Shown: in pieces, positions 1,957 to 62,720 of the stretch
Layout: each line of letters starts with the position of its first letter
Position numbering within the stretch: position 1 is the stretch's first letter
From: Neolewinella aurantiaca
GTDB taxonomy: Bacteria > Bacteroidota > Bacteroidia > Chitinophagales > Saprospiraceae
NCBI RefSeq assembly: GCF_008014675.1
Contig: NZ_VOXD01000006.1
Span: 8,521 to 72,520 of the forward strand
Reading direction: 5' to 3'
DNA: 64,000 bases
Position numbers and translations under genes: made by a program
Notes under the pieces: generated by a model
What the model was told of the DNA's origin: nothing
Database searches by the model: none
Seen by the model: the letters and a program-made list of their open reading frames with translations, nothing else

Positions 1957-3321
1957 CTAGTCCACAATTCCGCCCGTGAGGCGGAGTACTTCGGTTTCGG
2001 TGTTTTTCAGTCCGAGGAGAGCGTTGAGCAGTTGAAACTCGGCGTTGATGTAGTTTACCTGAATGGCGCGGTAATCGAAACTATTGATGGTACCGCCCTT
2101 GAACCGCTCTTCGGCGATGGCGATGTTTTGCTCGGCGTTTTCGATCAGGCGGCGGGTGATGCTGATGACTTCGCGCTGGTTCTCGTACTGATCCAGCGAA
2201 GAAGCGAGGGCAGAACGGAGCTGCTGCGCAACAGCATCCACGTTCAGGTTAGCGGTGATTTCCTGAAGTTTTGCGGTTTGAACGCGCACGTTGCGTGCGC
2301 CTCCGTCGTACAGCAGGTAATTGACCGTCAGGCCAACCGAACCGCTCAGGGTTCGCGCACCAATTCCCGGCAAAGAGCGCTCATCGGGCGCTCCGGTACC
2401 GAAGTCGAACGTTTGGCTTCCCGTTGCCAGGTTGTAATCGTAACCCGCAGCTGCCGCGAAATTGATGGTGGGCTTTTTTTCGGCTTCGATCAGGCGGGTA
2501 TTGATGTCGGCCAGGGTTTTACTGACGCGCAGTGCCGAAAGCTGGCTGTTGGCCTCGAGTAACCGACTCTCCAGGGCATTGCGGTCGTAATTTTCCGTTA
2601 CCTCATCGAGCTCGGTGGTGAGGGTGATTTGCTGGTCGAGGTCATCGGCGCCCATCTGTTGCAACAGGTTGCGGACGGCAATTTTGTACTGAAGTTGTTG
2701 GCCAACCAGCTGGGTGGAATCCGACAGGTAAGCATCGCGGGCCTGCAGTTCGTCGAAGGTGCCTCCCTGACCAAACTCCGCACGGACTTCCTGGTAACGG
2801 ATACGATCACGGCTAAGGTCGAGCACCCGCTGTAGTACTGCAATTTGCTCCTCGGCAACAACGGCGTTGTAGTAGGCATCCACGATGTCGGCCACGCTAT
2901 TCTCGACCTGAACCTGCAGCTGTTCCCGGCTCTGGTAGGCGAGGGTTTCGAAGCGTTCGCGGTTCATCGCGATGCGGCCTCCGTTGAAAAGCGTCCAGCT
3001 GAGACTGGCGCTGGGGCCGATACCGTAGCTAAAAGTCGACGACTTGGCGACGATGCTTGCCGGGTTGGAGTTGTTACTGTAACTGATGCCGGGGTCCAGG
3101 CCCAGAGTGATGGTCGGCAGCTTGCCCGTCAGGGCATCGTTTACGTTGTTTTCGGCAACGGCCACATCGGATTGTGCCAACCTGATTTGATAGTTGTTCG
3201 CCAGGCCTTCCTGGATAGCGTCGCTCAGGCTTAGAGTTTTCGCTGCGCGGCTGCCTGAGGCGGTTTGGGCGCTGACGCAGGTGCAGAGGAGGAGTAGAAG
3301 GCAGAGTATGGTTGATCTCAT
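1957..3321 (-). CDS. TolC family outer-membrane efflux protein (454 aa)
   Basis: Outer-membrane channel subunit of a tripartite efflux pump. The N-terminus is a signal peptide ending in CTCVSAQ (about residues 13-19). The mature part is mostly long alpha-helix with two repeats of the outer-membrane efflux (OEP) fold and short beta segments such as the glycine-rich stretch near residue 330, as expected for TolC, and the length is normal. It is the last gene of a minus-strand cluster with an RND pump and adaptor, so it probably supplies the exit duct for that pump, although two unrelated genes lie between. The signal-peptide end is encoded by a copy of the dispersed 20-mer (3268-3286). The ATG start was chosen because the signal peptide begins there. 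Family call is firm, substrate unknown. Confidence 0.9.
   Translation of the reverse strand: MRSTILCLLLLLCTCVSAQTASGSRAAKTLSLSDAIQEGLANNYQIRLAQSDVAVAENNVNDALTGKLPTITLGLDPGISYSNNSNPASIVAKSSTFSYGIGPSASLSWTLFNGGRIAMNRERFETLAYQSREQLQVQVENSVADIVDAYYNAVVAEEQIAVLQRVLDLSRDRIRYQEVRAEFGQGGTFDELQARDAYLSDSTQLVGQQLQYKIAVRNLLQQMGADDLDQQITLTTELDEVTENYDRNALESRLLEANSQLSALRVSKTLADINTRLIEAEKKPTINFAAAAGYDYNLATGSQTFDFGTGAPDERSLPGIGARTLSGSVGLTVNYLLYDGGARNVRVQTAKLQEITANLNVDAVAQQLRSALASSLDQYENQREVISITRRLIENAEQNIAIAEERFKGGTINSFDYRAIQVNYINAEFQLLNALLGLKNTETEVLRLTGGIVD
3268..3286 (-). repeat. Dispersed 20-mer copy (signal peptide of the TolC-type gene)
   Basis: Minus-strand copy of the TTGCACCTGCGnnCGCGCC family with a CAG where the consensus has nCG. 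It encodes the CTCVSA end of the TolC-type signal peptide. Confidence 0.65.
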
Positions 3322-3404
3322 GTTTGGTCTTTTGCTCCGGGACTCCGCGCTCGACTTCGTCGCTCGCTTCGTCCGGGTTAAAACAGTTGGACTCTTTCGG
3401 AGCC

Positions 3405-3914
3405 TTAAGAGTTGTAGTTTTTAGTTTTATTCTTGGAGTCAGCAGTTGGGGGATCTTGCTTTTCAACGTTCGTTGCATCCTGCGGCCGCGCCCCTTCAAA
3501 GACCCTCCGCTTTGCGTAGAAGTTATAGAAGAAAACGATGCCCGTAGCGGCGCCCTTGATGATCCATTCCTGATCGCCGAGGTAAGGAAACTGATGCAGG
3601 CCGGTAACGATGAGCCAGTCGAGCAACATCCCGCCTGCGCTGACCAGCATACTGAGCACAAAGGCACTCTGAACGGACCGCCGCAACTCGAAAACGAAGT
3701 AGCGCTGCAGAACAAAATTGACCAGTACGCTGCTGGAGTAAGCAACCATTGTTGCTGGCCCCGGCGGCAGAAAACGATCGACCAAAAGAAGGTACATCCC
3801 GAAGTTGATCCCCGTGGCTACGATGCCGCTCAGGAGAAAAGGGATTTTCTCAAGAACGAAGGGGGGGATCATTTTCCGCACACTTTCCGGCAAATAGTTC
3901 TCGGGTTTCATCAT
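3405..3914 (-). CDS. GtrA-like family membrane protein (169 aa)
   Basis: Small inner-membrane protein of the GtrA/DPMS family, which generally moves or helps move polyprenyl-linked sugars for surface polysaccharide modification. Four hydrophobic helices are visible (about residues 25-45, 55-75, 85-105 and 115-135), with the family-typical pattern FLLSGIVATGINFGMYLLL and FVLQRYFVF. Its ATG overlaps the end of the upstream nucleotidase gene by 4 bases, so the two are translationally coupled. A charged non-membrane tail of about 30 residues follows and contains a copy of the dispersed 20-mer. The role beside an efflux pump is unclear. Confidence 0.8.
   Translation of the reverse strand: MMKPENYLPESVRKMIPPFVLEKIPFLLSGIVATGINFGMYLLLVDRFLPPGPATMVAYSSSVLVNFVLQRYFVFELRRSVQSAFVLSMLVSAGGMLLDWLIVTGLHQFPYLGDQEWIIKGAATGIVFFYNFYAKRRVFEGARPQDATNVEKQDPPTADSKNKTKNYNS
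3473..3494 (+). repeat. Dispersed 20-mer copy (CATCC variant)
   Basis: Plus-strand copy with ATCCTGCG in place of ACCTGCG, identical in variant form to the copy at 23455. It lies inside the C-terminal tail of the minus-strand GtrA-like gene, outside its membrane domain. Confidence 0.75.
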
Positions 3915-4462
3915 GCCTGCATTGCTCGTGTCCGGTTGCGTTCTTCCTGGAAGTACGTCCGTACTTCTTCCCAGTTGTGTACCCGGTGGTACTCTTCGTC
4001 GTAATGGTTATCGAGCGCATCGAACAGCAAACCTGTGCCGTTGAATCCCTTCAGGTTGCTGACTTTATCGTCGATCATGAAGTCTCCGTGAACGATGCTT
4101 TTGTTCCCACAAAAGACGATCCGCTGGAAGCTGATGAAAGGGAAGTGTTCCTCGAGCCACTCCCACTTATCGCGGTAGCTGTGTTTGAATTCGGAAGCGG
4201 TGGAAACGATGTAGACTTCGTAGTTGTCGTACAGTTCCTTCATCACCTCTACCGCTCCGGGCAACACCTCGAGATCACGGAAGAAACCTTCTTCGTGCAT
4301 CGCGTTGCGGATATCAGCTGCGCCTTCCAGATCATAGACCTTGCGGCCAAGTAATTCTTCGTGCGTTGGCCGGCGGCCGAAGGCCGCCTCGTAACGATCG
4401 ATGAACTTGACGTAAGTGTTGGCGAGCACGCCATCCATGTCCACTATTATTCTTGGCATCAT
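3911..4462 (-). CDS. 5'(3')-deoxyribonucleotidase-like HAD hydrolase (NT5C family, 183 aa)
   Basis: Cytosolic HAD-superfamily phosphatase resembling the NT5C group, which dephosphorylates pyrimidine deoxynucleoside monophosphates. Visible motifs are DMDGVLANT (motif I, with nucleophile and acid aspartates, residues 8-16), VSTAS (motif II, serine/threonine) and DFMIDDKVSNL (motif IV with the metal-binding aspartates). Length fits the family. It overlaps gtrA by 4 bases and sits 82 bases downstream of the RND pump gene on the same strand, so it is probably part of the same transcript. Its link with efflux is not obvious. Either of two adjacent ATG codons could start it. Confidence 0.85.
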   Translation of the reverse strand: MMPRIIVDMDGVLANTYVKFIDRYEAAFGRRPTHEELLGRKVYDLEGAADIRNAMHEEGFFRDLEVLPGAVEVMKELYDNYEVYIVSTASEFKHSYRDKWEWLEEHFPFISFQRIVFCGNKSIVHGDFMIDDKVSNLKGFNGTGLLFDALDNHYDEEYHRVHNWEEVRTYFQEERNRTRAMQA

Positions 4463-4544
4463 TGAGAATCAATTGAAAGAAAAGAATGTCTTAATCTCCG
4501 CATTACAGGACGGAACCGCCAGCGGTACGCTGGAGCAACTAAGC

Positions 4545-9622: not shown

Positions 9623-9626
9623 CCAA

Positions 9627-10841
9627 ATGCCAGCAACTACCTCTTTGAAACAATTTTGGTCGGCGGCGAGAGCCGCCGCTGCCGCGGGGGAACTCCTGAA
9701 ACTGACCCTGAGTAAACCGGTGTACGGAAGTTCCGACCTGCCCCGCAACCGCTACGGTCGGTTGGTGGAAATAAAAGGCCGCACCTTGCTGCAGATCACC
9801 CACCGTTACGCAGACCGCGAGGAAGTGAAGAACCACCCCATCAACGAAGGATTAGCGCTGATGGAGAACGCCCTCGGCACAGATTATTACAACGCCGACC
9901 TGTTCAGCACTACCGAAAAATTCAGTCTTATCCTCAGCCGGAAGGGCAACGCACGCGTGCTTCGTCAACCCGCTTTGCACCCGCGGCCGCGCCCTGATGT
10001 ATCGTTGCCCAAACTGAAGGACCTCGTCGTCACCGATCACAACCGCGAAAAGCACCGCGACATCCCCGCCGACCGGCCCTACCTGCAACACCTGGGCATC
10101 ACCAACGCCAGAGGCGAGGTGCTGCGCGATGGCAAACGGAAGTTTAAGCAGATCAATAAATTCGTTGAAATCATCGCCGCCCTGCTGCGCGAACACCCAC
10201 TGCCCGATGACGCTCACATTGTCGACATGGGCTCCGGGAGCGGCTACCTCACCTTTGCGCTGTACGACCACCTGGTCAATACGCTCGATCTCAACGTCCG
10301 CATTACCGGCGTGGAACTGAGGCCCAAACTCGTGGAAAAATGCGCACATATTGCGAATAAAAACGGCTTCAAGAACCTCACCTTCGTCGAGGGCTACATC
10401 GACGATTTCAAGCCTAAGAAGATCGACATGCTCATCGCCCTCCACGCCTGCGACACGGCAACGGACGATGCGCTTTATAAAGGCATTGTTGCGAAAGCCG
10501 AAATCATGGTGGTAGCACCCTGCTGCCAGAAACAGGTTCGCCGTGACATGGAAGTTCCTGCCGATCTGAAACCTCTGCTCGGCAACGGCATCCTGCTGGA
10601 GCGCCAGGCCGCCATGCTCACCGATGGTATGCGCGCGCTGCTCCTCGAAGCCGAAGGTTATAAAACCAAACTCTTCGAGTTCATCCCGCTGGAACATACG
10701 GCCAAGAACGTGATGATCACCGCCGTAAAAGGCCGCAAACGCCCCAAGGCACTAGAGGAATTCCGAACGCTGCGGAAGCGGTTTGGCGTGAAGAAACACT
10801 ACCTGCGGAAGCTGATAAAACAGGAAAAAGCGAAAGCCTGA
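9627..10841 (+). CDS. SAM-dependent methyltransferase (GSTCD/Methyltransf_32-like, 404 aa)
   Basis: Class I Rossmann methyltransferase. Motif I is VDMGSGSGYLTFAL (about residue 195), followed by the acidic SAM-ribose position in ITGVELRPKLVEKC and the downstream block LIALHACDTATDDAL. The segment VVAPCCQKQ fits a family related to the methyltransferase-like domain of eukaryotic GSTCD, often annotated as acting on tRNA or RNA. The first ~150 residues form a separate basic domain. A longer reading frame begins 13 codons upstream, but the -7 box lies inside that extension, so the ATG at 9627 is preferred. Substrate is not known. A dispersed 20-mer copy lies at 9974, in the linker RQPALHPRPRPD. 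Confidence 0.8.
   Translation: MPATTSLKQFWSAARAAAAAGELLKLTLSKPVYGSSDLPRNRYGRLVEIKGRTLLQITHRYADREEVKNHPINEGLALMENALGTDYYNADLFSTTEKFSLILSRKGNARVLRQPALHPRPRPDVSLPKLKDLVVTDHNREKHRDIPADRPYLQHLGITNARGEVLRDGKRKFKQINKFVEIIAALLREHPLPDDAHIVDMGSGSGYLTFALYDHLVNTLDLNVRITGVELRPKLVEKCAHIANKNGFKNLTFVEGYIDDFKPKKIDMLIALHACDTATDDALYKGIVAKAEIMVVAPCCQKQVRRDMEVPADLKPLLGNGILLERQAAMLTDGMRALLLEAEGYKTKLFEFIPLEHTAKNVMITAVKGRKRPKALEEFRTLRKRFGVKKHYLRKLIKQEKAKA
9974..9994 (+). repeat. Dispersed 20-mer copy (inside the methyltransferase gene)
   Basis: Matches the consensus with CCCGCG in place of CCTGCG and GGCCGCGCCC at the right end. It encodes the low-complexity linker LHPRPRP between the N-terminal and catalytic domains. 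Confidence 0.75.
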
Positions 10842-15567: not shown

Positions 15568-17007
15568 ATGCAAGACACCAAAGTAGTAAGGCAGATTTCC
15601 GCCATGGACGGTCGCGAGCGCGAGCGCCTGCGGCAGTTCGTACGCAGCCCCTACTTCAACCGGCACGCAGCAACGTCGAAACTGCTCGATTTTATCCTCA
15701 AGGAGTTGGGCAAGACCAAACCGAAGCTGGAAGAGGCGCGGGCGCAGGATGCCGTGAAGGGTACCGGCACCGACCAGAAACTAAACGATCTGCTCTCCGG
15801 ACTGATGAAGCTCATCAATCGGTTCTTCGCCGTCGAGCAACTGCAGAGTGAGGCTTTCCGCGAGGAGGTCCTCACCCTGAAGCGTACCAAAGAGCTCCAC
15901 CGCTACAAACTGCTCGACAACCGCGGTAAACGACTGGACACCAAAGTCGCTAAGCACAAGTTCCGCGATGCAGACACCCACCTGGCCGCCTACGAATGGA
16001 AAAACATCAACGGTTACCTTCAGGGAGAAACCAACCGGACCGACACCCGCGAGATGCAAGCCATGCTCAACCACCTGGACCGCTTCTACCTCGTCGAAAA
16101 ACTCCGCCACGCCTGCCAGCTCACCGCAAACATGATGATGCTGAGCACGCACTACGAGCTGCTCTTTCTTGAGCCCATTCTGGCTTACCTCGATTCCGAA
16201 GATGGCCAGAACCTGCTCAAATCCGGTAAGGAGCCCAGCATCGATGCCTACTATCACATTCTGATGAGCCTCCGCGAACCCGACGATAAGAGTTATTACG
16301 AACGAATGCTCTATTACCTCGACGATGGCTTCGAATACCTCCCCCTGCGCCACCAGAAAGACATCTACATCTTTGCCAGTAACTACTGTATCGCCCGCGT
16401 CCGCAAGGAGCCCGAATACCTTAAGGAGTTGATGAACCTCTACCGCCGTGTCCTCCAGAACGGCATCATCTACGAGAAAGACGAAATCAGCGAATACGAC
16501 TACAAAAACATCGTCACCCTCGGCTCAGCGACGGGAGAATTCGACTGGACAGAACGCTTCATCGAAGAAAACCGCGAACGCCTGCCCGCCCCTAAACGAG
16601 ACAATGCCTACGCCCTCAACAAAGCTCGGTTCCTGTACAGCCTCGGCCGTCTTGACGAAGCCGCGCAACTCCTCGTTACCGTTACTGACTCCGACGTGGT
16701 GTACCACCTCGCCCGGGTAATTCTGGAGGTCCGCATCGCCTACGATCAGCAAGACCAGGAATACACCCTCAACCTGCTCGAAACCTTCCGGCTCTACGTC
16801 CGCAGGAACCGCAAGATGAGTACCAAAGACAAGCGGAGTTACATCAACTACACCCGTTTCACCAAGTCGCTCGTCAACCTTAAACACCAAAAAGATTTCA
16901 TGGCCAGGTCGGCTTACACCAAAAAACTCGCAGCTTTGCATACTACTGTAGAGGAAACAGAACTCGTCGTGGAGCGAAACTGGCTGTTAACCGAAAGCAA
17001 GGAATAG
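15568..17007 (+). CDS. Unrecognised cytoplasmic helical protein (479 aa)
   Basis: I do not recognise this protein. It has no signal peptide or membrane helix. The composition is highly charged and leucine-rich with many aromatic residues, and predicted helices run throughout (for example the stretch around YHILMSLREPDDKSYY), giving the look of a TPR- or HAT-like helical repeat scaffold, without a clean TPR consensus. The N-terminus contains the short motif LRQFVRSPYFNRH, which is common at the start of Bacteroidota hypothetical proteins of this length. It is convergent with trigger factor, separated by a palindromic terminator. Confidence 0.75.
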   Translation: MQDTKVVRQISAMDGRERERLRQFVRSPYFNRHAATSKLLDFILKELGKTKPKLEEARAQDAVKGTGTDQKLNDLLSGLMKLINRFFAVEQLQSEAFREEVLTLKRTKELHRYKLLDNRGKRLDTKVAKHKFRDADTHLAAYEWKNINGYLQGETNRTDTREMQAMLNHLDRFYLVEKLRHACQLTANMMMLSTHYELLFLEPILAYLDSEDGQNLLKSGKEPSIDAYYHILMSLREPDDKSYYERMLYYLDDGFEYLPLRHQKDIYIFASNYCIARVRKEPEYLKELMNLYRRVLQNGIIYEKDEISEYDYKNIVTLGSATGEFDWTERFIEENRERLPAPKRDNAYALNKARFLYSLGRLDEAAQLLVTVTDSDVVYHLARVILEVRIAYDQQDQEYTLNLLETFRLYVRRNRKMSTKDKRSYINYTRFTKSLVNLKHQKDFMARSAYTKKLAALHTTVEETELVVERNWLLTESKE

Positions 17008-18760: not shown

Positions 18761-18779
18761 GGGCGCAAACGCGGGTGCA
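18761..18779 (-). repeat. Dispersed 20-mer copy (intergenic)
   Basis: Reverse-strand copy (GGGCGCAAACGCGGGTGCA) upstream of the tRNA-Leu promoter. Confidence 0.8.
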
Positions 18780-18845
18780 GGGTGAGGATGATGTTGACTA
18801 CATCCCTAACAATCAGCCTGCAATATCGCAGTTGCCCCCCTCTTT

Positions 18846-19052: not shown

Positions 19053-19073
19053 TTTGCACCTGCGACCGCGCCC
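19053..19073 (+). repeat. Dispersed 20-mer copy (intergenic)
   Basis: Full match to the consensus with nn = AC: TTTGCACCTGCG then ACCGCGCCC. Confidence 0.85.
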
Positions 19074-20724: not shown

Positions 20725-20790
20725 GGGTTATTGGGTTGTTTTGTGATGATGCTATTTGCACGGGTTTTGGTGGGTGGGAGTATCTTTTTT

Positions 20791-20807
20791 GCGCGGACGC
20801 GGGTACA
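20791..20807 (-). repeat. Dispersed 20-mer copy (degenerate, intergenic)
   Basis: GCGCGGACGCGGGTACA resembles the reverse consensus with two changes; located between two TonB-type genes. Confidence 0.55.
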
Positions 20808-20845
20808 GGGAAGGGTTAAAGAGCACTGGTCTGGCGGTTGGCAAC

Positions 20846-23454: not shown

Positions 23455-23477
23455 TTTGCATCCTGCGGCCGCGCCCC
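23455..23477 (+). repeat. Dispersed 20-mer copy (intergenic, CATCC variant)
   Basis: Same variant as at 3473: TTTGCATCCTGCG then GCCGCGCCCC. It lies just before the collagen-gene terminator. Confidence 0.8.
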
Positions 23478-29655: not shown

Positions 29656-30166
29656 ATTTGGTTTAAGTTCTAAAGCCGTGAGAACCCGCCTTGATGCGCG
29701 CAAAAGATCATTAACCAATCAGCGTGATGCTGGAGTGGCATTAAGTGAATAAAGGCGAAATGCCCCTAAGTTCACTTTTTACATGGACCAGGACACAAAA
29801 ACCATGGTCGAACTAAAAAAAACGATTTTCAAGTGTTATCAATAGCAAAGTCTCATGATGTGAATATACGCCAAATAATATACCGCCACGACATCACTAG
29901 AAAGATTTCACTAAGATTTAACCTTCTAATTTATACGCCTTTATGTTGTTTCTGAGCTCTTGTCACCAAAAGATGTTAACACAAAACCTAAAAGGAGTAA
30001 AATACGGTTTCAGGGCGATGTTCAAAAAATTTACATTGCACCTGCGGCCGCGCAAAAAAAGAAATTCCAGGAAAAAATGCCTCCGTGGCACCTGTTCTCA
30101 AAGCAAATGGGAGAACGACCTTGCGATCATCCTCCCATTTACCGATTCAATTATCCATCGGAATTA
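29656..30166. other. AT-rich intergenic region between T9SS gene and pyrophosphatase
   Basis: About 510 bases with no convincing gene. It should hold the promoter of the T9SS and collagen-like genes, but no clean TAnnTTTG box was found. It contains one 20-mer copy (30036) and a weak hairpin AAATGGGAG/CTCCCATTT at 30105-30140 that may mark the end of the pyrophosphatase transcript. Confidence 0.5.
30036..30053 (+). repeat. Dispersed 20-mer copy (intergenic)
   Basis: TTGCACCTGCGGCCGCGC, an exact match to the consensus except for the last base. Confidence 0.85.
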
Positions 30167-43019: not shown

Positions 43020-43391
43020 ATGAAGTATATTCTTGTTCTTCTCCTCAGCCTTAACCTCACCACGCTTTCCGCACAATCATCCAGCCAATCGGTATCTGAA
43101 GTCAGCTCAGACGACGGGTATCTGTTTGCGGTAAAACTCGATAAGCAGCAAAAACAAAAACTGCTTTCGGCCTTCGAAAAGATTACCGGTAACGAATTAA
43201 ATGTGAAAGTGACCGGTTTACTAGTCGAGGAATACGAAAACGGTACCGTTGTGGAACTCAACACCCGCAAAAACCGACTATCCGTAAATTACAGCGGCAC
43301 CAACGAGACCGCGAAGCAGGAAGCCCGTAAATTGGCCGTAGCCATTCAGGACATCCTCAACCTTGCACCTGCGCCCGCGCCGCCTCATTAG
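43020..43391 (+). CDS. Small exported protein of unknown function (123 aa)
   Basis: Not recognised. A signal peptide (MKYILVLLLSLNLTTLSAQ) is followed by about 100 polar residues with a lysine-rich helix (KLDKQQKQKLLSAFEKI) and a beta-rich half. It sits inside the efflux operon, 45 bases after the second permease and 77 bases before the regulator start. A periplasmic accessory or sensor role is possible but not shown. The last residues, LAPAPAPPH, are coded by a 20-mer copy, so the C-terminus may have been extended by it. Confidence 0.65.
   Translation: MKYILVLLLSLNLTTLSAQSSSQSVSEVSSDDGYLFAVKLDKQQKQKLLSAFEKITGNELNVKVTGLLVEEYENGTVVELNTRKNRLSVNYSGTNETAKQEARKLAVAIQDILNLAPAPAPPH
43363..43381 (+). 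repeat. Dispersed 20-mer copy at a gene end
   Basis: TTGCACCTGCGCCCGCGCC, an exact consensus match. It supplies the last codons of the small exported gene. Confidence 0.85.
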
Positions 43392-43468: not shown

Positions 43469-44833
43469 ATGCCCCACAAAATCCTTATCATCGACGATGA
43501 CACCATGGTGTCCACCAGTTTGGAGCTCCTGCTCAAACGGGCTGGCTACGGTGTAAAAAGTGTGTCCCGCCCGGCAGAAGCGTTGCCCGCCATTGCGGAG
43601 CAGCGACCATCGTTGGTGCTGTTGGATATGAACTTTACGATAGACACCAGCGGAAAGGACGGGATGGCTCTGCTGAAGCGCATCCTGGGGAAACACCCCA
43701 ACCTGCCGGTGATTCAGATGACGGGCTGGGCGACCGTCCAGCTGGCCGTGGAAGGCATGAAAGCGGGTGCGCGCGACTTCATCGCCAAGCCCTGGGACAA
43801 CCGGGAGTTACTCAACGCAGTAGCCATTCAGGTCGATAAATTTCCGGTATGGCATGATTTTTTGGGCGCGGACGCAGGTGCAGGGAAAGTAAGCGACAGC
43901 AACACTCCTTTCGCGGGCATCATCGGTGAATCGGCGGCGCTCACTTCCGTCCTCGAGCAGGCAAAAAGGGTAGCTCCTACCCACGCTTCTGTCCTCATCA
44001 CCGGCGAAAGCGGTACCGGCAAAGAATTGGTCGCCGAGGCCATTCACCTTGCCTCTCAGCGGGCGGGGAAGCCTTTCGTGGCCGTAAACCTTGGTGGTGT
44101 ACCGAAAGGTTTGTTTGAGAGTGAGCTCTTCGGCCACAAAGCCGGGGCCTTCACCGATGCCCGGACCGACCGTCAGGGGCGTTTCGAGCTCGCCGAAGGC
44201 GGCACCCTGTTCCTCGATGAAATCGGAGATTTGGACCTGGCCGCTCAGGTAAAACTGTTGCGCGTACTTCAGGAGCGCCAGTACGAGCGCCTCGGTGAGA
44301 GCAAGGCGCGGAAGACAGATGTACGCATTTTATCAGCAACCAGCAGGGACCTGCAGAGCATGGTCGCCGCAGGAACTTTTCGCGAAGACCTGCTCTACCG
44401 CATCAACCTCATCCACCTGCACCTCCCGCCCCTGCGGGAGCGCCCCGACGACATTCTGCCCCTGGCCGAGCACTTCCTGGCCGGAGCTAAAAAACGCTAC
44501 GAAAGGCCACAACTTGAGTTGGGCCGGGAGGCTAAGTCATGGCTTCGCCGCCAGGCTTTCCCCGGCAACATCCGTCAATTGCAAAACCTGGTGGAGCGCA
44601 CCGCAATCCTCGCACCGGCTACCGTTGTCCAGGTCGAGGACATCGACAAGGGCCAGTCGATGGCGTCCGACAAAGCCTTCGCCCCCGGCGGCATGACACT
44701 AGAGGAAATGGAGATCAAGATGATAAAAGCAGCCCTGGGCCGCCACGGCGGAGAGATTGCTGCCACCGCACGGGAACTGGGCCTTACCCGCGCCGCGCTG
44801 TACCGGCGGATCGAGAAGCACGGGATTGGTTAG
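43469..44833 (+). CDS. Sigma-54-dependent response regulator, NtrC type (454 aa)
   Basis: Enhancer-binding activator. The receiver domain (about 1-125) has IIDDD, the phospho-acceptor in LVLLDMNF and the KPW lysine. The AAA+ domain (about 150-390) has Walker A GESGTGKE, Walker B GGTLFLDEIGDL and GAFTDA in the loop that touches sigma-54 (a known variant of GAFTGA). The C-terminus is a Fis-type helix-turn-helix (IAATARELGLTRAALYRRI). Start at 43469 gives a normal receiver N-terminus; the frame is open 15 codons earlier. The linker LGADAGAG is coded by a 20-mer copy. It likely drives the sigma-54 promoter at 36741. Confidence 0.93.
   Translation: MPHKILIIDDDTMVSTSLELLLKRAGYGVKSVSRPAEALPAIAEQRPSLVLLDMNFTIDTSGKDGMALLKRILGKHPNLPVIQMTGWATVQLAVEGMKAGARDFIAKPWDNRELLNAVAIQVDKFPVWHDFLGADAGAGKVSDSNTPFAGIIGESAALTSVLEQAKRVAPTHASVLITGESGTGKELVAEAIHLASQRAGKPFVAVNLGGVPKGLFESELFGHKAGAFTDARTDRQGRFELAEGGTLFLDEIGDLDLAAQVKLLRVLQERQYERLGESKARKTDVRILSATSRDLQSMVAAGTFREDLLYRINLIHLHLPPLRERPDDILPLAEHFLAGAKKRYERPQLELGREAKSWLRRQAFPGNIRQLQNLVERTAILAPATVVQVEDIDKGQSMASDKAFAPGGMTLEEMEIKMIKAALGRHGGEIAATARELGLTRAALYRRIEKHGIG
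43864..43882 (-). repeat. Dispersed 20-mer copy (receiver-AAA linker)
   Basis: GGGCGCGGACGCAGGTGCA on plus, a near-perfect reverse copy. It falls in the interdomain linker of the response regulator. Confidence 0.8.
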
Positions 44834-46689: not shown

Positions 46690-49247
46690 TTTACCTGATC
46701 CACGCCGGTCTTCTGCTTTCGGGCTGCTTCGCCTACTACTGGTTGTTGCTGCGGAACGAGACCCACTTTTCGCTCAACCGCTGGGTCCTGCTTGGCTGCC
46801 TGGTCGGTTCGCTCGTTTTACCCCTCGTAACGGTGCCTGCCGCCTGGTCGCTCCGGAAAGCGCTGGTGACCGAATCCGTCGTTCCTGATGCAACGGAGCC
46901 TTCTTCGTCCGTAGCTAACACGAGCCTGATTTCCAGGGCCGGTACCAGCGCGACGGAGAGCGCAGCAACCAAGGCAGAGATGACCCCCGCAACGGCTCCC
47001 CCTCCGGCGAGTACCACGACGGGCCAAATCATTACAACGCAAGACCAGCAAACCGCCCGGGCTTCCCTTCCGGCGGGAATCAATTACGGGAAGTTACTGT
47101 GGTTGATCTATCTGGGAGGTGTAGCCATTTTCGGGCTTCACTTTCTGGTTCAACTGGGCTACCTGATCGTGAAGGTGATCCGCCACCCCGGCTTCGATGC
47201 CGGAGGCTTCCACCTCGTGGAGTTGAAAGAAGAGGCGGCCCCCTACTCTTTCTGGAACCGGGTATTCCTGAACCCCGATCGCTACGACCCTGAGACGTAC
47301 CACCAGATCGTACAACACGAGGCGGTGCACGTTCGGCAACGGCACAGCATCGACCTTCTCCTCGCTGAGCTCGTCGTGATTGTGCAGTGGTGCAACCCCT
47401 TCGCCTGGCTCTACCGGCGGGCCATCGAGAACAACCTCGAATTTTTGACCGATGCGGAGGTGATTCGCCAGGGCGAAGACCCGGTCGATTACCAGATGAG
47501 CCTCGTAAAGGTTGCCGTTCCCAATTTCCCTCTCGGCCTCACAACCAGCTACAACCAATCCCTTCTTGAAAAGCGTATCACCATGATGAAATCCAAAAAA
47601 TCCTCCCTGGCTTCCGGCTGGAAGTACCTCACCATCCTCCCCCTGCTCCTGCTTTCCGTGATTCAGTTCAATGCGGTAGCGCAAACAGCGCCGGTGCCCG
47701 CGCCTGACCACGAGGCCGCGTCTCCCGTTGCGATCCCTCACCCTGCACCTGCTGCCGAGCCCGTTTCCGCACCCGCCGAAACGGCTATTGCCGTAGCGGT
47801 AAGCCCCGTAGCGGCTTCGGAGGCGACGTCCTTCCCGTTGCCCGCCATGACCGTTCAGGTCTCCCCTGCCCCCGCGGTAACTCCAGTGCCGGATGTGGTG
47901 ATTCTCCCCGTAGCAAATCCGGCCGTAAGTGCGACCAACGAAGATTTCGACAAGGCCCGCCGCAGCTGGACCGCAGAGATCGAAGACGACGAAGTCTGCT
48001 TCACCTTCATCGTTACCCAGGGCGACCGTCAGCACCTTTCAACCAATAGTCGCTGCTTCCCACGCGCCGAACTGGGAACTCTTCCTACCGGACAGACGGG
48101 CGATTTCTCCCTGCAGCGCGAATCGGGAACCGTCACCTTCAACGGCGTTTTCAACGGCCCCGAAGGCTTAGGCAGCTTCGATTTCCTTCCGGACCCGAAC
48201 TTCAGAAAAATGCTGGCCGCCAAGGGGTACGATGGCTACGAAGACATGGAATTGCTCCACTTTTTCTTCATCGACTTCACCTCCGGCTACCTCGACTACC
48301 TGAACCGCGAAGACTACAAACCTACCGAGCGCGAGCTGTTCAAACTCGCCATCTTCGGCCTTAGCGAAGATGAATTCCGTTCGGCCCTTTCCGGTTACCA
48401 GACCGCAGGTTACGGTAAGCCGGACATGGATAAAATGATCGAACTCCGCATCCATGGCGTAAACGATAAATACATCAACGAACTCTCCGGGCTGGGCTAC
48501 AAAGACCTCACCCTCGACGACGTGATGAAGGCCAGAATTCATGGCCTCAGTGCAGATTTCGTGGAAGACATGACAAAGGCCGGCTTCCGAAAAATGCAAT
48601 TCGACGACATCATCAACCTATCCATTCACGGCGTCTCCAGCGCGTATGTTGCGGAACTCAAAGACCTCGGTTACGACAACCTGAGCCCTGATGACGTGCT
48701 GGAAGCACGCATCCATGGTGTCCGGACCGAACACATCGAAAACCTGCGCGAAGCAGGGTTAGGTAACCTTTCGCTCGAAGATGCCCGCAATGCAGCCATT
48801 CACGGAGTAAACGCAAGCTACGTCAGCGAACTGGCTGAGCTCGGTTACACAAGCCTGAAAATAGACGACGTGATTACCGCTAAAATTCATGGCGTAAGCA
48901 AGCGCAAAATCGGAGATCTTAAAAAGGCTGGCCTTACTGGACTCTCGCTTGATGACGCCAGCAAAGCCGCCATTCACGGTGTGAATGCAGACCAGGTACA
49001 GGAGCTCCGGGACATGGGATACACGGAACTGGAATTCGACGATTACGTAACCGCCCGTATCCACGGCATTACGCCTCGTTTCGTACAATCTTACGAGGTC
49101 CTCGGCTACGGGAAAATTCCTTTTGAGCAACTGACGAAGCTCAAAATTCACGGGGTTTCTGCTGATTACATCCGTAAATACCGACGGGACGGGGATGACA
49201 TCAACGATCTGATCGGCGATAAGATTCGTGGTCGTCACCGCAACTAG
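46686..49247 (+). CDS. M56 (BlaR1-like) membrane metallopeptidase with C-terminal IHG repeats (853 aa)
   Basis: Membrane zinc protease thought to sense a signal and trigger BlaI cleavage. N-terminal helices are at about 5-25, 33-55, and about 140-165; the zinc motif HEAVH (about residue 217) sits in QHEAVHVRQRHSIDLLLAEL with the distal Glu region NNLEFLTDAEVI. Another helix (about 315-333) leads to an Ala/Pro-rich linker, a beta-rich domain, and about eight 29-residue repeats of IHGV-x-Y-x-EL-x-LGY-x-L-x-DD type (about residues 585-825). The repeats are probably extracytoplasmic and replace the penicillin-binding sensor of BlaR1. Coupled to blaI by a 4-base overlap. Confidence 0.88.
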   Translation: MIYLIHAGLLLSGCFAYYWLLLRNETHFSLNRWVLLGCLVGSLVLPLVTVPAAWSLRKALVTESVVPDATEPSSSVANTSLISRAGTSATESAATKAEMTPATAPPPASTTTGQIITTQDQQTARASLPAGINYGKLLWLIYLGGVAIFGLHFLVQLGYLIVKVIRHPGFDAGGFHLVELKEEAAPYSFWNRVFLNPDRYDPETYHQIVQHEAVHVRQRHSIDLLLAELVVIVQWCNPFAWLYRRAIENNLEFLTDAEVIRQGEDPVDYQMSLVKVAVPNFPLGLTTSYNQSLLEKRITMMKSKKSSLASGWKYLTILPLLLLSVIQFNAVAQTAPVPAPDHEAASPVAIPHPAPAAEPVSAPAETAIAVAVSPVAASEATSFPLPAMTVQVSPAPAVTPVPDVVILPVANPAVSATNEDFDKARRSWTAEIEDDEVCFTFIVTQGDRQHLSTNSRCFPRAELGTLPTGQTGDFSLQRESGTVTFNGVFNGPEGLGSFDFLPDPNFRKMLAAKGYDGYEDMELLHFFFIDFTSGYLDYLNREDYKPTERELFKLAIFGLSEDEFRSALSGYQTAGYGKPDMDKMIELRIHGVNDKYINELSGLGYKDLTLDDVMKARIHGLSADFVEDMTKAGFRKMQFDDIINLSIHGVSSAYVAELKDLGYDNLSPDDVLEARIHGVRTEHIENLREAGLGNLSLEDARNAAIHGVNASYVSELAELGYTSLKIDDVITAKIHGVSKRKIGDLKKAGLTGLSLDDASKAAIHGVNADQVQELRDMGYTELEFDDYVTARIHGITPRFVQSYEVLGYGKIPFEQLTKLKIHGVSADYIRKYRRDGDDINDLIGDKIRGRHRN

Positions 49248-50233: not shown

Positions 50234-50839
50234 TTACAACTGCCCTAACTCCCGCTCCAGGTTACTGCGCGCTGCGTCTTCCCACTGCCCGCGGGCGATA
50301 GCGCCGTGGTATATGTATGGCTTTTCCAGAAAATGGCGCAGTGCTTTTTTGCGGCCGGGACGATAAACGAAGTCGGGAAACATCCCGAACTCCTTCCTGA
50401 TGGCGCGGGTGTATTCGTCATAGCCGGCGGGGTCCCGCGCGAGAACAGCGAGGTCCAGGTCCACCAAAAGGGCTTCCTCTTCGGTAGTTGCTGCGTGGGT
50501 TTTGGTGGTCATTATCAGTTGATGACAGCGGCTTTGGCCGGCTTCACTCACGCCCGCTTTTTGCAGAAAAGCCACTGCCTTGACGGCGCTTCGGGCTTCA
50601 TTATCTTTTCGGCCGGCACGGTACACGATGTCGTGGTAAATCAGGGCAATCCCGAATACGGGCTCGGCAGCAGGTGCAGGGGAAGGTAAAAGGCAAGGCA
50701 GATGACCCAGCATTTCTTCCAGGTGATTGAAGTTATGGTACGCACGGCCATCGTATGCTTTTGCTATCGCAGACCATTCGCCCGAAAGCGCTGGCTCCAA
50801 CCCTTTAATACACGCCGCGAAGTAATGGGCTGGTTTCAT
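50234..50839 (-). CDS. Predicted metal-dependent HD-superfamily phosphohydrolase (201 aa)
   Basis: HD-fold hydrolase of the COG4339 type. Conserved metal ligands are visible: H in YHNFNHLEEML (about residue 35), the HD pair in IYHDIVY, and a later H in CHQLIMTTKTH with VDLDLAVLARD. It likely acts on a phosphorylated small molecule, but the substrate is not known. The frame is open to 50869, but that part would overlap the nadC -7 box, so the ATG at 50839 is preferred. Divergent to nadC. Confidence 0.82.
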   Translation of the reverse strand: MKPAHYFAACIKGLEPALSGEWSAIAKAYDGRAYHNFNHLEEMLGHLPCLLPSPAPAAEPVFGIALIYHDIVYRAGRKDNEARSAVKAVAFLQKAGVSEAGQSRCHQLIMTTKTHAATTEEEALLVDLDLAVLARDPAGYDEYTRAIRKEFGMFPDFVYRPGRKKALRHFLEKPYIYHGAIARGQWEDAARSNLERELGQL

Positions 50840-52623: not shown

Positions 52624-52641
52624 GGGCGCAAACGCAGGTGC
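52624..52641 (-). repeat. Dispersed 20-mer copy (first of an inverted pair)
   Basis: GGGCGCAAACGCAGGTGC on plus. It faces the copy at 52724 with about 80 bases between, so the two could pair as a hairpin. Confidence 0.8.
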
Positions 52642-52723
52642 CACAAAGGTTGGAGCAGCAAGGTACAAACGCATGCGCCCCTTCATTTCGCTTCTCTTTC
52701 GTTGCTCCTCGGTCAACCTGCCC

Positions 52724-52741
52724 TGCACCTGCGTGCGCGCC
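52724..52741 (+). repeat. Dispersed 20-mer copy (second of an inverted pair)
   Basis: TGCACCTGCGTGCGCGCC, a full match apart from the first T; 64 bases before the M3 peptidase start. Confidence 0.8.
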
Positions 52742-54848: not shown

Positions 54849-56529
54849 AGCTTTATTTTTTGCATTAACACTGTTGCTATCAGTGGGTAGTGCTGCTGCC
54901 GCACCATCCTCTGCTGCCACGTCTCTCCTCTCGCGAGGAGCTACCCTCCCTACACAAGTACAAAAACCGCATTTCAGTAGTGATTCTGCACTCAAAACGC
55001 GAAGCGTTTTCACGAGCCTCTCCCTCGTGGGGAGGGGTTGTGGAGGGGGGTTTGCAGCCGATGCAGACTTCTATAGGGAAAGTAGCTCCCAAGGAGCAGG
55101 GCCGGAAGAGAGGGAATCCTCCGATCGTCATTATGCCATGACAACCCAGGCGCAGATCATCTACAACCGGATTCTGGCAATGGAACTGGACGGTGCGCAG
55201 TCGGACCTGGACGTATTCCGCGAGCGTTACCCCACTAACCTGGCTGCGGAGCACCTCGAGAGTTACCTCGATTTCTTTCGCCTCTACCTCAATGGCGACG
55301 AAAGGATCGATGAGCGCCTCTCGGCCCGCTTTGACCGCAGAATAGATGCTCTGGAAGACGGCGAAGAGAGCTCTCCCTACTTTCGTTATGCGCTCGCCGA
55401 AGCGCGCCTTCACCGCAGCCTGATCCACCTTCGTTTCGAACGGCACCTGGCTGCGTTCCGCGAGCTCAATAAAGCCCACAAACTGTTGCGGGACAATGCT
55501 AAGGAATTCCCCGACTTCCTGCTGACGTACAAAGACCTCGGGTTACTGCATGCTGCCGTTGGCAGCATCCCACCTCAGTATAAATGGGGCGTAGAATTGT
55601 TCAGCTCCCTAAACGGAACTATTGCTGAAGGAAGGGCTGAAATCGCGCTCGCGCTGTCCGACGAGAACAACCCTTTTCTCCTCGAGACCCAGGTACTTTC
55701 GGCCTTTCTGGAACTCCACCTTGCCGGGGAACCCGAGGCAGCCTTCGAGAAAATAAACAACCTTGGCCTGAAGCCGAAGACCAACTCACTCCACTGTTTC
55801 ATCCTGGCCAACCTGGCGATGCGCAGCGGCCGCAACGATCTGGCCCTGCGTACGCTCGAGAACCAGCCCCGCGGCGGAGCCGCGGAAGACTTCCCTTACC
55901 TCGACTTTATGCTGGGCCTGGCAAAACTACGGACCCTGGACCCTACAGCACGCCTGTACTTCCAATCGTTCAACGTGCGGTACGCCGGACGGCATTTTAA
56001 GGAAGAAGCGCAGCAAAAAATCGCCTGGGCTTACCTGCTCGGCGGAGACGAAGAAGGGTACCATAAGGCAATGTCGCGCATTGGTGGCGGAAGCAAAGCC
56101 GGTGGCGACCAAAACGCAGCAATGGAGGCAGCCCGCCACCAAATCCCTCAACCGGAACTGCTGCGCGCCCGGCTCCTCTTCGACGGCAACTATTGCACCC
56201 GCGCCCGCGCCCGACTGGAAAAGATCGACATCTCCACCCTCAGCGAAATCGAACGCCTGGAATATTATTACCGTACCGGCCGCGTTCTCGACGGCCTGAA
56301 CGACTACGACGGAGCGCTGTCTTTTTACCTCCAGACTGTCAGGATGGGAAGAGACAACCCCGCTTTTTACGCCTGCAAATCGGCCCTGCAGGCCGGCTTG
56401 ATCGAAGAAAAACGCGGTAATAAGGAGCTCGCACAGAAGTATTTTTCCGATTGTCTCGACATCTCCCCGGCAGAATACAAAACTGGCCTGCACATCCTGG
56501 CCAAATCAGGACTGGACCGGGTCCAGTAA
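54841..56529 (+). CDS. Exported helical-repeat (TPR-like) protein of unknown function (562 aa)
   Basis: Not recognised beyond fold. A signal peptide (MLRALFFALTLLLSVGSAAAA) is followed by about 60 residues that read as translated intergenic repeat (54993-55050, see separate entry), then from about residue 100 a helix-rich body with TPR-like periodicity (for example ALRTLENQPRGGAAEDF and the YYYRTGRVLDGLNDYDGAL segment). It starts within the pterin-dehydratase stop, so the two are coupled. A 20-mer copy at 56193 encodes CTRARARLE. Function unknown; scaffolding in the envelope is a guess. Confidence 0.75.
   Translation: MLRALFFALTLLLSVGSAAAAPSSAATSLLSRGATLPTQVQKPHFSSDSALKTRSVFTSLSLVGRGCGGGFAADADFYRESSSQGAGPEERESSDRHYAMTTQAQIIYNRILAMELDGAQSDLDVFRERYPTNLAAEHLESYLDFFRLYLNGDERIDERLSARFDRRIDALEDGEESSPYFRYALAEARLHRSLIHLRFERHLAAFRELNKAHKLLRDNAKEFPDFLLTYKDLGLLHAAVGSIPPQYKWGVELFSSLNGTIAEGRAEIALALSDENNPFLLETQVLSAFLELHLAGEPEAAFEKINNLGLKPKTNSLHCFILANLAMRSGRNDLALRTLENQPRGGAAEDFPYLDFMLGLAKLRTLDPTARLYFQSFNVRYAGRHFKEEAQQKIAWAYLLGGDEEGYHKAMSRIGGGSKAGGDQNAAMEAARHQIPQPELLRARLLFDGNYCTRARARLEKIDISTLSEIERLEYYYRTGRVLDGLNDYDGALSFYLQTVRMGRDNPAFYACKSALQAGLIEEKRGNKELAQKYFSDCLDISPAEYKTGLHILAKSGLDRVQ
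54993..55050 (-). repeat. Fragment of the ~600-bp intergenic repeat inside a coding sequence
   Basis: The run CAAAACGCGAAGCGTTTTCA and CGTGGGGAGGGGTTG correspond to the reverse complement of the CGCTACGCGTTTTGGGTTGC box and the CCCCTCCCCACGGGG hairpin of the repeat at 1-1830. It is read through in frame, about residues 51-70, between the signal peptide and the helical body. Confidence 0.7.
56193..56212 (+). repeat. Dispersed 20-mer copy (inside the helical-repeat gene)
   Basis: TTGCACCCGCGCCCGCGCCC, with one change from the consensus. It encodes CTRARAR. Confidence 0.7.
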
Positions 56530-58028: not shown

Positions 58029-58047
58029 GGCGCGGGCGCAGGTGCAA
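58029..58047 (-). repeat. Dispersed 20-mer copy (intergenic)
   Basis: GGCGCGGGCGCAGGTGCAA, an exact reverse match to the consensus, 159 bases before nadE. Confidence 0.85.
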
Positions 58048-59903: not shown

Positions 59904-59916
59904 ATAGCTCACCACT

Positions 59917-60888
59917 ATGAACCCAATAACCACCGCCCTCCTCGGCCTATCCGTAGCGGACGCCATCGGCGTCCCCGTAGAATTTCAGACCCGGAGCGAA
60001 CTGGATAAAAACCCGGTGACCGACATTCGGGGCTACGGTACGTACTACCAGCCGCCGGGCTATTTCTCCGACGACAGCAGCCTGGCCTTCGGCCTGGCGG
60101 AAAGCCTGGCTACGGGGAGCTTTGATTTGGTGGATCAGTCGAAACGGTTGATCAACTATAAACACCACGGTTACTGGACCCCCAATGATGAAATCTTCGA
60201 CATCGGCATGACGACCAGCCGGGCCATCGACCACCTGGGAAACCTGTTCCGGAACAATAAAACCTCAGAACTGAGCACCCTGCACCAAAGCGCCAAAGAA
60301 TCTGACAACGGCAACGGCGCCCTCATGCGCATCTTCCCGCTCTACGCCTACCTGCGCGACAAGCCCGTGGCGGAGTGGATCGCACCCATCTGGCAGCATT
60401 CGGCGCTCACGCACGGGCACATCCGTTCGGTGTGTTGCTGCTTTTTGTACCTGCGTTTTTGCCATCACATCGTTACCGCTGAGAAGAAGGAGAAAGCATT
60501 GGAGCTGGCCCGCCGGGAGCTGCTCGATTTCCTGATGGCAGCTAATCTGCCCCTCGAGGAACTCGATACTTTAGCGACGCTCATCAAGGCGGACTTTGCC
60601 AGGGTGGCGCGCACGCAGGTGCGGGGTTCGGGTTACGTGGTGCAAAGTTTGGAGGCCGCGCTCTGGTCCATCTTCAATGCTGACAACTACCGCGACACCG
60701 TCCTGAACGCCGTAAACCTGGGCGAGGATACCGACACCACCGCCTGCATCGCAGGCGCCCCCGCCGCACTGCTCTACGGTGTAGAATCTATCCCCGCCAA
60801 CTGGCTGGAAGCCCTCGCCCGCCGCGAAGAGATCATCGACTTAGGAGACAGGTTAAATGCCACCTACCCCACACCCAACGTGCGGTAG
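59917..60888 (+). CDS. ADP-ribosylglycohydrolase family protein, DraG-like (323 aa)
   Basis: Probably removes ADP-ribose from proteins or nucleic acids, or hydrolyses related molecules. Family markers: an N-terminal SVADAIGVPVEF, the metal-binding SDDSS (about residue 51; Ser replaces the usual Thr), SDNGNGALMRIFP, SALTHGH and the C-terminal GEDTDTTACIAG. All metal-binding acidic residues appear intact. A 20-mer copy (60606) lies in ARTQVRGSGY, a region that is itself conserved in the family. Follows nadE by 70 bases. Confidence 0.9.
   Translation: MNPITTALLGLSVADAIGVPVEFQTRSELDKNPVTDIRGYGTYYQPPGYFSDDSSLAFGLAESLATGSFDLVDQSKRLINYKHHGYWTPNDEIFDIGMTTSRAIDHLGNLFRNNKTSELSTLHQSAKESDNGNGALMRIFPLYAYLRDKPVAEWIAPIWQHSALTHGHIRSVCCCFLYLRFCHHIVTAEKKEKALELARRELLDFLMAANLPLEELDTLATLIKADFARVARTQVRGSGYVVQSLEAALWSIFNADNYRDTVLNAVNLGEDTDTTACIAGAPAALLYGVESIPANWLEALARREEIIDLGDRLNATYPTPNVR
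60606..60622 (-). repeat. Dispersed 20-mer-like copy (inside an ADP-ribosylglycohydrolase gene)
   Basis: GGCGCGCACGCAGGTGC on plus, an exact reverse match to 17 bases of the consensus, in a conserved coding stretch. Confidence 0.6.
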
Positions 60889-61013: not shown

Positions 61014-61052
61014 ACGTAATCCGGGGTTCTTCCGAACGCAAAGCAGAGAAAT

Positions 61053-61826: not shown

Positions 61827-61935
61827 TTTGTTCCGCAGCCTTCAGGCTGCGCTGAAACTTTTCCTCAAGGCTTTCACACTGTATTTTTGAGAGTGTTTGC
61901 GGGCGTTTAGTGCGCTTATCAGCTGTCATTTACCC

Positions 61936-62026
61936 GTAGGCCCGGGTTTGCTTTGCAGCTGCCTACGGCGGTCAGCCGGAGGCTTGACAGCCTAAATTTC
62001 AAGCCTCCGGCTGAAGCCGGGCCTAC
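61936..62026. repeat. Palindromic REP-like element, first copy
   Basis: Outer arms GTAGGCCCGG and CCGGGCCTAC (61936-61945, 62017-62026) enclose inner arms CAGCCGGAGGCTTG and its complement (61973-61986, 62000-62013). An inverted relative occurs at about 62795-62877 on the other side of the GldM-like fragment. A smaller hairpin, GCAGCC-ttca-GGCTGC, lies at 61836-61851. Confidence 0.8.
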
Positions 62027-62029
62027 TGA

Positions 62030-62533
62030 TTACTTCAACTCAAAACTCAAGGTCTCCCCTACTTGGTCCACGAGTGCGCCGGGGCATCGGTAGCGGATTT
62101 TGGTGAAGATGTAGCGATTGCCGGGTTGGGCTTGATCAATAAGTGCCCGGGCTTCAGGCTCGTACTTGCCGCCTTCGTTTGTCACAATTTCGGCGTCGTT
62201 GCTTGTAGATATCCGGATGATCTCGTAGCTGATCGTCTTACAGACGGCACAAATATCAAAGCCTTCAATTTGGGCATATAGGCCTTGCTGTGATTTGAAA
62301 ACAATAGTTCTAACCCATTCCGTAGTCTTAGGGCCATAATTGCCTACTCTAGGTACGGCTGGTAAAGGCTTCGTGTTGAATTGATATTGTTCTCTTGTCC
62401 CGTCTTCCAGCGTCACGGTAATCTCAACAAAGCCTGACTCAGCAGAGCGCAATCTGAAGCCGTAGTTAGTTTGACTTATCTCTAAGGGTATTGCTTCTGG
62501 CTCTTTCTCGTCACCATAAGATGGCCGTACGTC
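62030..62533 (-). pseudogene. N-terminally truncated GldM C-terminal-domain-like gene
   Basis: The frame runs from after a TGA (62534-62536) to the stop at 62030 with no ATG; the first possible start is a TTG at 62452. The readable product, about 165 residues, has the end of one GldM-type domain (FVEITVTLEDGTREQYQF, KPLPAVPRVG) and then a second beta-rich domain (GFDICAVCKTISYEIIR, QAQPGNRYIFTKIRYRCPG, LSFELK). These match the last domains of the gliding/T9SS motor protein GldM or of standalone GldM-C-like proteins. It is flanked by inverted REP-like elements, which suggests it is a fragment. It might still be expressed from the TTG. Confidence 0.55.
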
Positions 62534-62701
62534 AGGTTTACAAACTATAGTTTACGGGAGGCTTCACGCAGACACATAGATTTGAAGTGAATTTACGTTA
62601 ACACCCGCTATTCAGCAAGTAAAGACCTTTTTTTGTGAATTAAACACCATTTCTACCTATTAACCCTATTAATACGCTCTGTTTGAAAACCTGAATTTTC
62701 A

Positions 62702-62720
62702 GGGCGGGGCCGCAGGTGCA
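62702..62720 (-). repeat. Dispersed 20-mer copy (intergenic)
   Basis: GGGCGGGGCCGCAGGTGCA on plus, a reverse copy with two changes, next to a hairpin. Confidence 0.6.

Follow-up and report, generated by a model that had tools for sequence, protein, structure and literature searches.

What function could have scattered the same 19-base motif along the genome of Neolewinella aurantiaca (Bacteroidota; Saprospiraceae)? The question arises from a 64,000-nucleotide stretch of contig NZ_VOXD01000006.1 (positions 8,521 to 72,520, hereafter the window), in which an initial annotation made from the letters of the DNA had listed 19 copies on both strands, and had proposed a DNA-uptake sequence, a nucleoid or recombination signal, or a very small mobile repeat. 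Among these candidates, the DNA-uptake sequence is the best supported as a predicted role: the motif is probably a directional, pilus-independent uptake signal, serving as self-recognition for DNA from relatives. Moreover, we found that copies obey a strand rule and that the motif exists in dialects, two properties beyond what a single window could show.

We scanned the window for the 19-base pattern TTGCACCTGCGNNCGCGCC with a limit of 3 mismatches and obtained 17 matches, against a mean of 0.29 and a maximum of 2 in 100 dinucleotide shuffles, which bears out the earlier remark that chance would give essentially none. A 20-base variant of the motif, TTGCATCCTGCGNNCGCGCC (the extra-base form), is also present in the window. 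Across the whole genome (5,995,659 bases in 104 contigs), 719 forward and 713 reverse copies were found at up to 2 mismatches, i.e., 1432 motif copies, compared with 0 and 1 for the reversed pattern. The extra-base form adds 85 + 101 = 186 copies, against 0 + 0 for its reversed control. These findings confirm that the motif is a genuine, genome-wide repeat with more than 1000 copies. The initial annotation had named counts close to expectation, or copies limited to the window, as outcomes that would speak against it; neither was seen, expectation being taken from the shuffles and the reversed pattern rather than from a codon-matched model.

The alignment of 123 sites from 464 kb of genome revealed a 19-base core, TTGCACCTGCG[T/G]CCGCGCC, accompanied by weaker flanks: positions -19 to -12 are pyrimidine-rich, positions -9 to -6 read AA, C/A, C, position -2 is a C, and the sequence around +22 to +25 is A/T-rich. 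A strong core with weaker flanks is also the build of the uptake signal sequence (USS) of Pasteurellaceae. The sites carry 34.3 bits of information, 28.4 of them in the core, while 13.0 bits suffice to mark 1432 places; we infer that such a surplus is what a driven sequence should show. Using a crude gene caller, which called ~85% of the DNA coding, 69 of the 123 sites were intergenic and 54 coding, in agreement with the earlier estimate that about half are intergenic (6 of 14 in the window with the same caller). The density is thus ~1 per kb between genes and ~1 per 7 kb inside them. Among the coding sites, 25 lie on the sense strand and use all three frames, and 29 lie against the gene in two of the three frames. 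The sense-strand copies frequently code for the last residues of a signal peptide (CTCVRAQ and similar), so that the placement first noticed in the window was found again beyond it.

To describe the orientation of the copies, we took six stretches from four species (1.27 Mb in all), which contain 349 sites when up to 3 mismatches are allowed. Of 343 pairs of neighbouring copies, 88 were on the same strand (p 5.6e-20), as were 94 of 372 when the extra-base form was included. Same-strand pairs closer than 2 kb numbered 12, compared to ~109 simulated, and came near expectation at 4–5 kb (41 vs. 46), whereas opposite-strand pairs closer than 2 kb were not depleted as a class (97 vs. 110). Below 1 kb, 45 pairs were divergent (30 expected), 13 convergent (30 expected) and 2 same-strand (61 expected). 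When the threshold was set at up to 1 mismatch, pairs within 2 kb comprised 0 same-strand and 29 opposite-strand cases; at up to 4 mismatches, the figures were 45 and 151. A similar picture was obtained with 112 named loci, selected for an exact copy and coming in part from the same three species: 7 same-strand and 62 opposite-strand pairs lay within 2 kb, and 36 and 32, respectively, at 4–8 kb. Leaving out three loci on the same contigs (109 remaining) gave 7 and 61 within 2 kb.

Same-facing copies thus avoid each other within 2–4 kb, while opposite-facing copies as a class do not. This rule is independent of genes, since 7-mers of the same contigs lack it: among 400 controls taken from 1136 of like abundance, none had a same-strand ratio below 0.372 for neighbours or below 0.341 for close pairs, against 0.257 and 0.110 for the motif. 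The rule suggests a signal acting one way over 2–4 kb. As a same-facing neighbour would be redundant for such a signal, we read the rule as one-way processing that starts at the motif. The possibility that divergent close pairs form a composite element was considered and rejected, the intervening DNA being different among the ten pairs inspected. Among the papers listed from the open-licence PubMed Central literature, none described the motif or the strand rule, and no paper there brought together an uptake sequence with same orientation, opposite orientation and spacing, or an uptake sequence with Bacteroidota.

We also monitored the spacing of the copies as the variance/mean of counts per 10 kb, compared with 2000 placement simulations. 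On contigs of 200–300 kb, the values were 0.45 (G000_C1), 0.42 (G002), 0.45 (G005) and 0.36 (G006; genomes are given by handle), and 4, 0, 13 and 0 of the 2000 simulations, respectively, were as low. It should be noted that this ratio is a weak test for a single contig, because a control 7-mer falls below the motif: the 400 controls had a mean of 1.08, and the lowest reached 0.32 in G006_C134, where the motif gives 0.36.

Among the sampled genomes the motif is confined to the genus. Its main form occurs in 20 of 20 same-genus genomes, with counts from 6 (G011) to 1617 (G005), and all 39 genomes of the family or order outside the genus hold 0–4 copies. Exact 20-base matches in named genomes cover at least 112 stretches; those listed come from Neolewinella/Lewinella isolates and metagenome-assembled genomes (MAGs), from one Saprospiraceae MAG and from one MAG named only Bacteroidia. 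A de novo word search outside the genus revealed no similar dispersed motif in the small samples taken from G021 (80 kb), G025 (80 kb), G035 (100 kb) and G037 (20 kb); given their size, these genera may still have dialects.

Genomes poor in the main form carry their own over-represented word. For example, G001 (main-form count 9) has 522 copies of TTTACCTGCGCTCCGCCGC, which is found 57 times in its sister G007 and at most 9 times in 35 other genomes searched. Likewise, G011 has 1067 copies of CATTGCTACTTTGNTAGCC, against at most 20 in each of 36 other genomes at up to 3 mismatches, the most being in G033 (20 vs. 4 for the control). Smaller shifts, provisional because 60–80 kb were sampled in each, were seen in G004, G007, G013, G014 and G016. 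In a species tree built from up to seven proteins of 16 species (G014 was left out, having too few genes), G001 and G007 nest beside G020, a main-form user, and their dialect therefore looks derived. Overall, the dialects track phylogeny, provisionally so for the five genomes with smaller shifts. The strand rule was also recorded with the dialect words: close pairs were 1 same-strand and 12 opposite-strand in G001, where 13 of 58 neighbours were on the same strand (p 3e-5), and 6 and 19, respectively, in G011.

In the window, 15 of the 19 copies listed by the initial annotation were among the 17 pattern matches, some shifted by 1–2 bases, while those at 3473, 23456 and 32557 proved to be the extra-base form and that at 20790 a weak copy with 4 mismatches. 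Three copies were added, at 47743 and 50661 (3 mismatches each) and at 15735 (extra-base form, 2 mismatches). The copies are given below, located by pattern scan unless stated, with gene context from the gene caller.

3268..3286, minus strand: motif copy, 2 mismatches, in the signal peptide (CTCVSAQ) of a TolC-like gene
3473..3492, plus strand: extra-base form, exact
9975..9993, plus strand: motif copy, 1 mismatch, in a predicted coding sequence
15735..15754, minus strand: extra-base form, 2 mismatches
18762..18780, minus strand: motif copy, 3 mismatches
19054..19072, plus strand: motif copy, exact, intergenic
20790..20808, minus strand: weak motif copy, 4 mismatches (sequence inspection)
23456..23475, plus strand: extra-base form, exact
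30036..30054, plus strand: motif copy, 1 mismatch, intergenic
32557..32576, minus strand: extra-base form, 1 mismatch
37037..37055, minus strand: motif copy, 1 mismatch, coding; also in G003 and G008, while eight other species lack it with no gap in the protein (scan and homologue alignment)
38213..38231, plus strand: motif copy, exact, in the signal peptide (CTCVRAQ) of a TolC-like gene; the G007 homologue reads TTGCACCTGCGCTCCGGCG (scan and homologue comparison)
43363..43381, plus strand: motif copy, exact, in the C-terminal tail of a predicted coding sequence
43865..43883, minus strand: motif copy, 1 mismatch, in a coding linker (GADAGA); slot filled in 10 of 15 species (scan and homologue comparison)
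47743..47761, plus strand: weak motif copy, 3 mismatches
50661..50679, minus strand: weak motif copy, 3 mismatches; the G003 and G005 copies match better (scan and comparison)
52625..52643, minus strand: motif copy, 2 mismatches, left half of a divergent pair
52723..52741, plus strand: motif copy, 1 mismatch, right half of the divergent pair
56193..56211, plus strand: motif copy, 1 mismatch, in a predicted coding sequence
58029..58047, minus strand: motif copy, exact, intergenic
60606..60624, minus strand: motif copy, 2 mismatches, in a predicted coding sequence
62703..62721, minus strand: motif copy, 1 mismatch, intergenic

Repeats of other kinds were also observed in the window. A long tract of 9-base repeats in very many copies spans ~23580-28978, its minus strand reading as collagen-like Gly-X-Y. 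A ~600-base repeat stands three times in tandem at 2-1830, with a 42-base part present four times, and has partial relatives at 18846-19013 and, inverted, at 54990-55050. Finally, a 58-base inverted repeat with 91% complementarity occupies 61929-61986 and 62819-62876, with 832 bases between the arms.

Positions of the motif are shared between related genomes, a check that had been proposed with the initial annotation. At 43865, 10 of the 15 species compared have the slot filled (up to 3 mismatches allowed), and the copy reads CGGCACCCGCGTCCGCGCC in G013 and G016 and TTGCTCCCGCGTTCCCGCC in G004; these variants are in keeping with the provisional dialects, though the same instances helped to define them. 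In orthologous intergenic regions of species with the same dialect, the probability of a site in the second species was 0.37 given a site in the first and 0.05 otherwise; across dialects it was 0.38 and 0.06, regions being reused in these counts.

Comparison of homologues (protein identity at least 60%) showed origin in place for many coding sites, not all. The copy at 37037 is common to G003 and G008, and 11 further species align there without a gap, eight of them lacking the motif (at least 7 mismatches) and three being intermediate. Altogether, 52 comparisons with motif-less homologues were ungapped (16 site entries, some of them the same slot from several species); a further 27 comparisons were intermediate, 14 ungapped and 13 gapped. 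A nucleotide comparison of close pairs found the motif in 47 aligned places and absent in 5, all 5 with gaps. With so few cases this set carries little weight, and it lends no support to origin in place.

We also searched for uptake machinery. ComEC, DprA and DUF1343 (NamZ) were present in 17 of 17 genomes searched, motif-less relatives included. No convincing type IV pilus ATPase (PF00437) was found in 11 genomes of the genus, which gave 19–25 bit partial matches only; six of these lay at or just above the cut-off of 24.9 and are read as putative cross-hits of other ATPases. For comparison, G035, from another genus, scored 417 bits. It is unlikely that the receptor belongs to a type IV pilus, and no candidate for it beside ComEC was conserved in the four species examined. 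The pair proposed for DNA uptake in Riemerella consists of a DUF5689 protein and a TonB-linked barrel; the two genes are adjacent in G011 and, in other genera, in G022 and G033, the G011 pair having been checked with Pfam. At L304:5673-10601 (G011:C115), as at L305 and L306, the TonB-linked barrel gene is followed by the DUF5689 lipoprotein gene, beside a probable methyltransferase gene.

How could uptake produce such a layout? A receptor in the recipient envelope would bind the 19-base core together with its weaker flanks, and motif-bearing DNA would enter, cross ComEC in single-stranded form and recombine. Because import would be biased in this way, copies would accumulate and stay intact. 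Were processing to begin at the motif and proceed in a single direction, a nearby same-facing second copy would be redundant, while a back-to-back neighbour would cover new ground, so that divergent pairs would be favoured over convergent ones. The excess of divergent over convergent close pairs hints, weakly, that the DNA 3' of the motif is the delivered side. Copy number, surplus information, even spacing, dialects and origin in place together would be the trace expected of biased DNA import.

Several observations weigh against a directional uptake signal. Convergent avoidance below 1 kb is weaker than same-strand avoidance (13 vs. 30 and 2 vs. 61, respectively), whereas a simple one-sided model predicts equal exclusion. 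The strand rule itself is not expected of a plain uptake sequence, because USS uptake is reported as orientation-independent (PMC1939737). Judged by neighbours, the rule is weak in G011, where 15 of 44 share a strand (p 0.05); G016 lacks it (9 of 16). Even spacing was not significant in the window, in G000_C2 and in G011; it was marginal in G001 (149 of 2000 simulations as low at 10 kb and 57 of 2000 at 5 kb) and gone in G002 at 20 kb (417 of 2000). When each intergenic region was counted once, slot sharing across dialects was 4 of 9 vs. 11 of 66 (Fisher p 0.07). Moreover, 28 comparisons with motif-less homologues did show a gap, against the 52 ungapped, and coding sites are gap-prone: 175 of 335 comparisons were gapped, compared to 169 of 1675 at random positions (another 121 comparisons, which were not spanned, were left out). 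As for the machinery, ComEC, DprA and NamZ permit transformation but are no marker, since motif-less relatives have them too. DUF5689 was found in G011 alone of 20 genus genomes searched, the other 19 giving no match, and the Riemerella-type barrel in G011 alone of 21, the other 20 giving weak partial matches. Our searches revealed no motif-binding protein, and no report of transformation in the genus was seen among the open-licence PubMed Central papers listed.

Part of the evidence would also suit other functions. In a Chi-like signal, a resecting nuclease would read the motif in one orientation, stop degrading and start recombination; as breaks are met from either side, regular sites would be needed on each strand, and strand-specific regular spacing is indeed predicted. 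Chi sites are directional and dispersed, one per few kb, much like the motif. However, known Chi sites have 5–8 bases and are skewed to the leading strand, whereas here the core has 19 bases, the sites carry 34.3 bits and the strands alternate, which speaks against such a skew; the shift of dialects within one genus also argues against it, and we consider this explanation unlikely. It would account for the copies in phage-like contigs. In IMG/VR, 27 stretches of viral contigs hold an exact motif copy. Of these, 13 have a GC content of 0.53–0.58 and 2–4 separate copies, several being near-identical to one another, and the remaining stretches have one copy, or two overlapping copies, or a differing GC content. 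Contigs L308, L310, L311, L312, L317, L319-L325 and L328 show 2–4 copies per 6–15 kb, in spots like those of the host (CTGVRAQ signal peptide, GADAGA linker), and the predicted products mark several of them clearly as phage. L308, L311 and L323 look like they encode phage structural proteins, and L311 an integrase-like protein, the predicted products having been judged by eye without a family search. Such copies would fit chromosome-resident DNA, but a protective signal would account for them too, which is a point against uptake; they decide nothing.

Donor-side export would also work one way: a gene transfer agent, vesicle loading or secretion would package a few kb from the motif, and the fragments would spread among relatives. 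Such export likewise predicts drive and dialects, along with headful-sized exclusion between same-strand copies, but known gene transfer agents package largely at random, and no such element turned up, though no search was aimed at one; we hold it improbable. We give similarly little credence to a chromosome-organising site of a directional DNA-binding protein, e.g., one that blocks a loop-extruding motor. The alternation of strands and the even spacing would suit it, whereas the information far exceeds marking needs, dialects turn over inside the genus and no binding protein is known. A regulatory element of promoters or terminators, to which the intergenic enrichment, the closeness to gene ends and the hairpin-like DNA flanked by some close pairs might point, is very improbable: 54 of 123 copies lie inside genes, 29 of them against the gene, and the strand rule is independent of genes. 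The mobile repeat proposed by the initial annotation, in the sense of a tiny or REP-like (repetitive extragenic palindrome) element spreading by insertion, found the least favour. Its copies would be dispersed and commoner between genes, as observed, and some motif-less homologues are gapped. Yet ungapped motif-less comparisons outnumber gapped ones, sense-strand copies use all three frames, and neither even spacing nor same-strand exclusion fits. The inserted block with empty sites that defines REPs and miniature inverted-repeat transposable elements was thus not the pattern found, although some copies may differ, and we regard this origin as extremely improbable. The recombination and nucleoid signals of the same list stand as weaker rivals to an uptake signal.

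The predicted uptake signal resembles the DNA uptake sequence (DUS) of Neisseriaceae in its many dispersed copies, coding and intergenic, and in its species dialects (PMC3630211); DUS dialects track phylogeny and rank as the most over-represented words (PMC3630211). It differs in its core, 19 bases against 10–12, and in its strand-specific spacing, a rule that we did not find reported for DUS. USS, for their part, share the lack of an overall strand bias and the copies inside genes towards gene ends (PMC2346458), as well as even spacing, according to one study cited in PMC1939737. In contrast, USS orientation is reported to be immaterial to uptake (PMC1939737), whereas in Neolewinella the genomic layout shows same-strand copies excluding each other. 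Hundreds to thousands of non-palindromic copies on both strands, in coding and intergenic DNA, and dialects along phylogeny are thus common to all; the type IV pilus machine, used by both known families, has no convincing motor in the genus. The motif would work like a DNA uptake sequence, but we do not class it as a member of either family, because its role is predicted only, no pilus turned up and its strand rule differs from what is reported for USS. The features that biased import would leave do match those described for Neisseria and Haemophilus (PMC3630211, PMC1939737, PMC7811141, PMC2346458).

Closer in phylogeny, Riemerella belongs to the same phylum and transforms without pilus homologues (PMC8459023), and the own DNA of R. 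columbina outcompetes foreign DNA for uptake (PMC7965970). Neolewinella is alike in showing no convincing pilus motor and in having ComEC and DprA, and the own-DNA preference of R. columbina would be a further likeness (PMC8459023, PMC7965970). Unlike here, no dispersed specific motif is reported for Riemerella, the candidates listed being A/T-rich words, and the DUF5689/barrel pair is missing from the main-dialect Neolewinella searched.

We advance more tentatively, as a possibility that falls somewhat short of even chances, the complete picture of a directional, pilus-free recognition signal with dialects in Bacteroidota, in which each copy would serve one side over 2–4 kb and the strands would be spaced separately. 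Campylobacter provides a methylation-dependent case of sequence-specific uptake. In 2013, sequence-specific uptake was called unique to Neisseria and Pasteurellaceae (PMC3630211). If the picture is true, the motif would be a third, independently evolved uptake-type signal, and the first with one-way processing visible in the genomic layout. A case that arose independently in a different phylum would demonstrate convergence and offer a handle on the outer-membrane step of transformation in Bacteroidota. The strand rule would then be a measurable footprint of one-way DNA processing, applicable to Haemophilus and Neisseria genomes, and the dialects would allow a direct test of whether gene exchange is barred between sister species.

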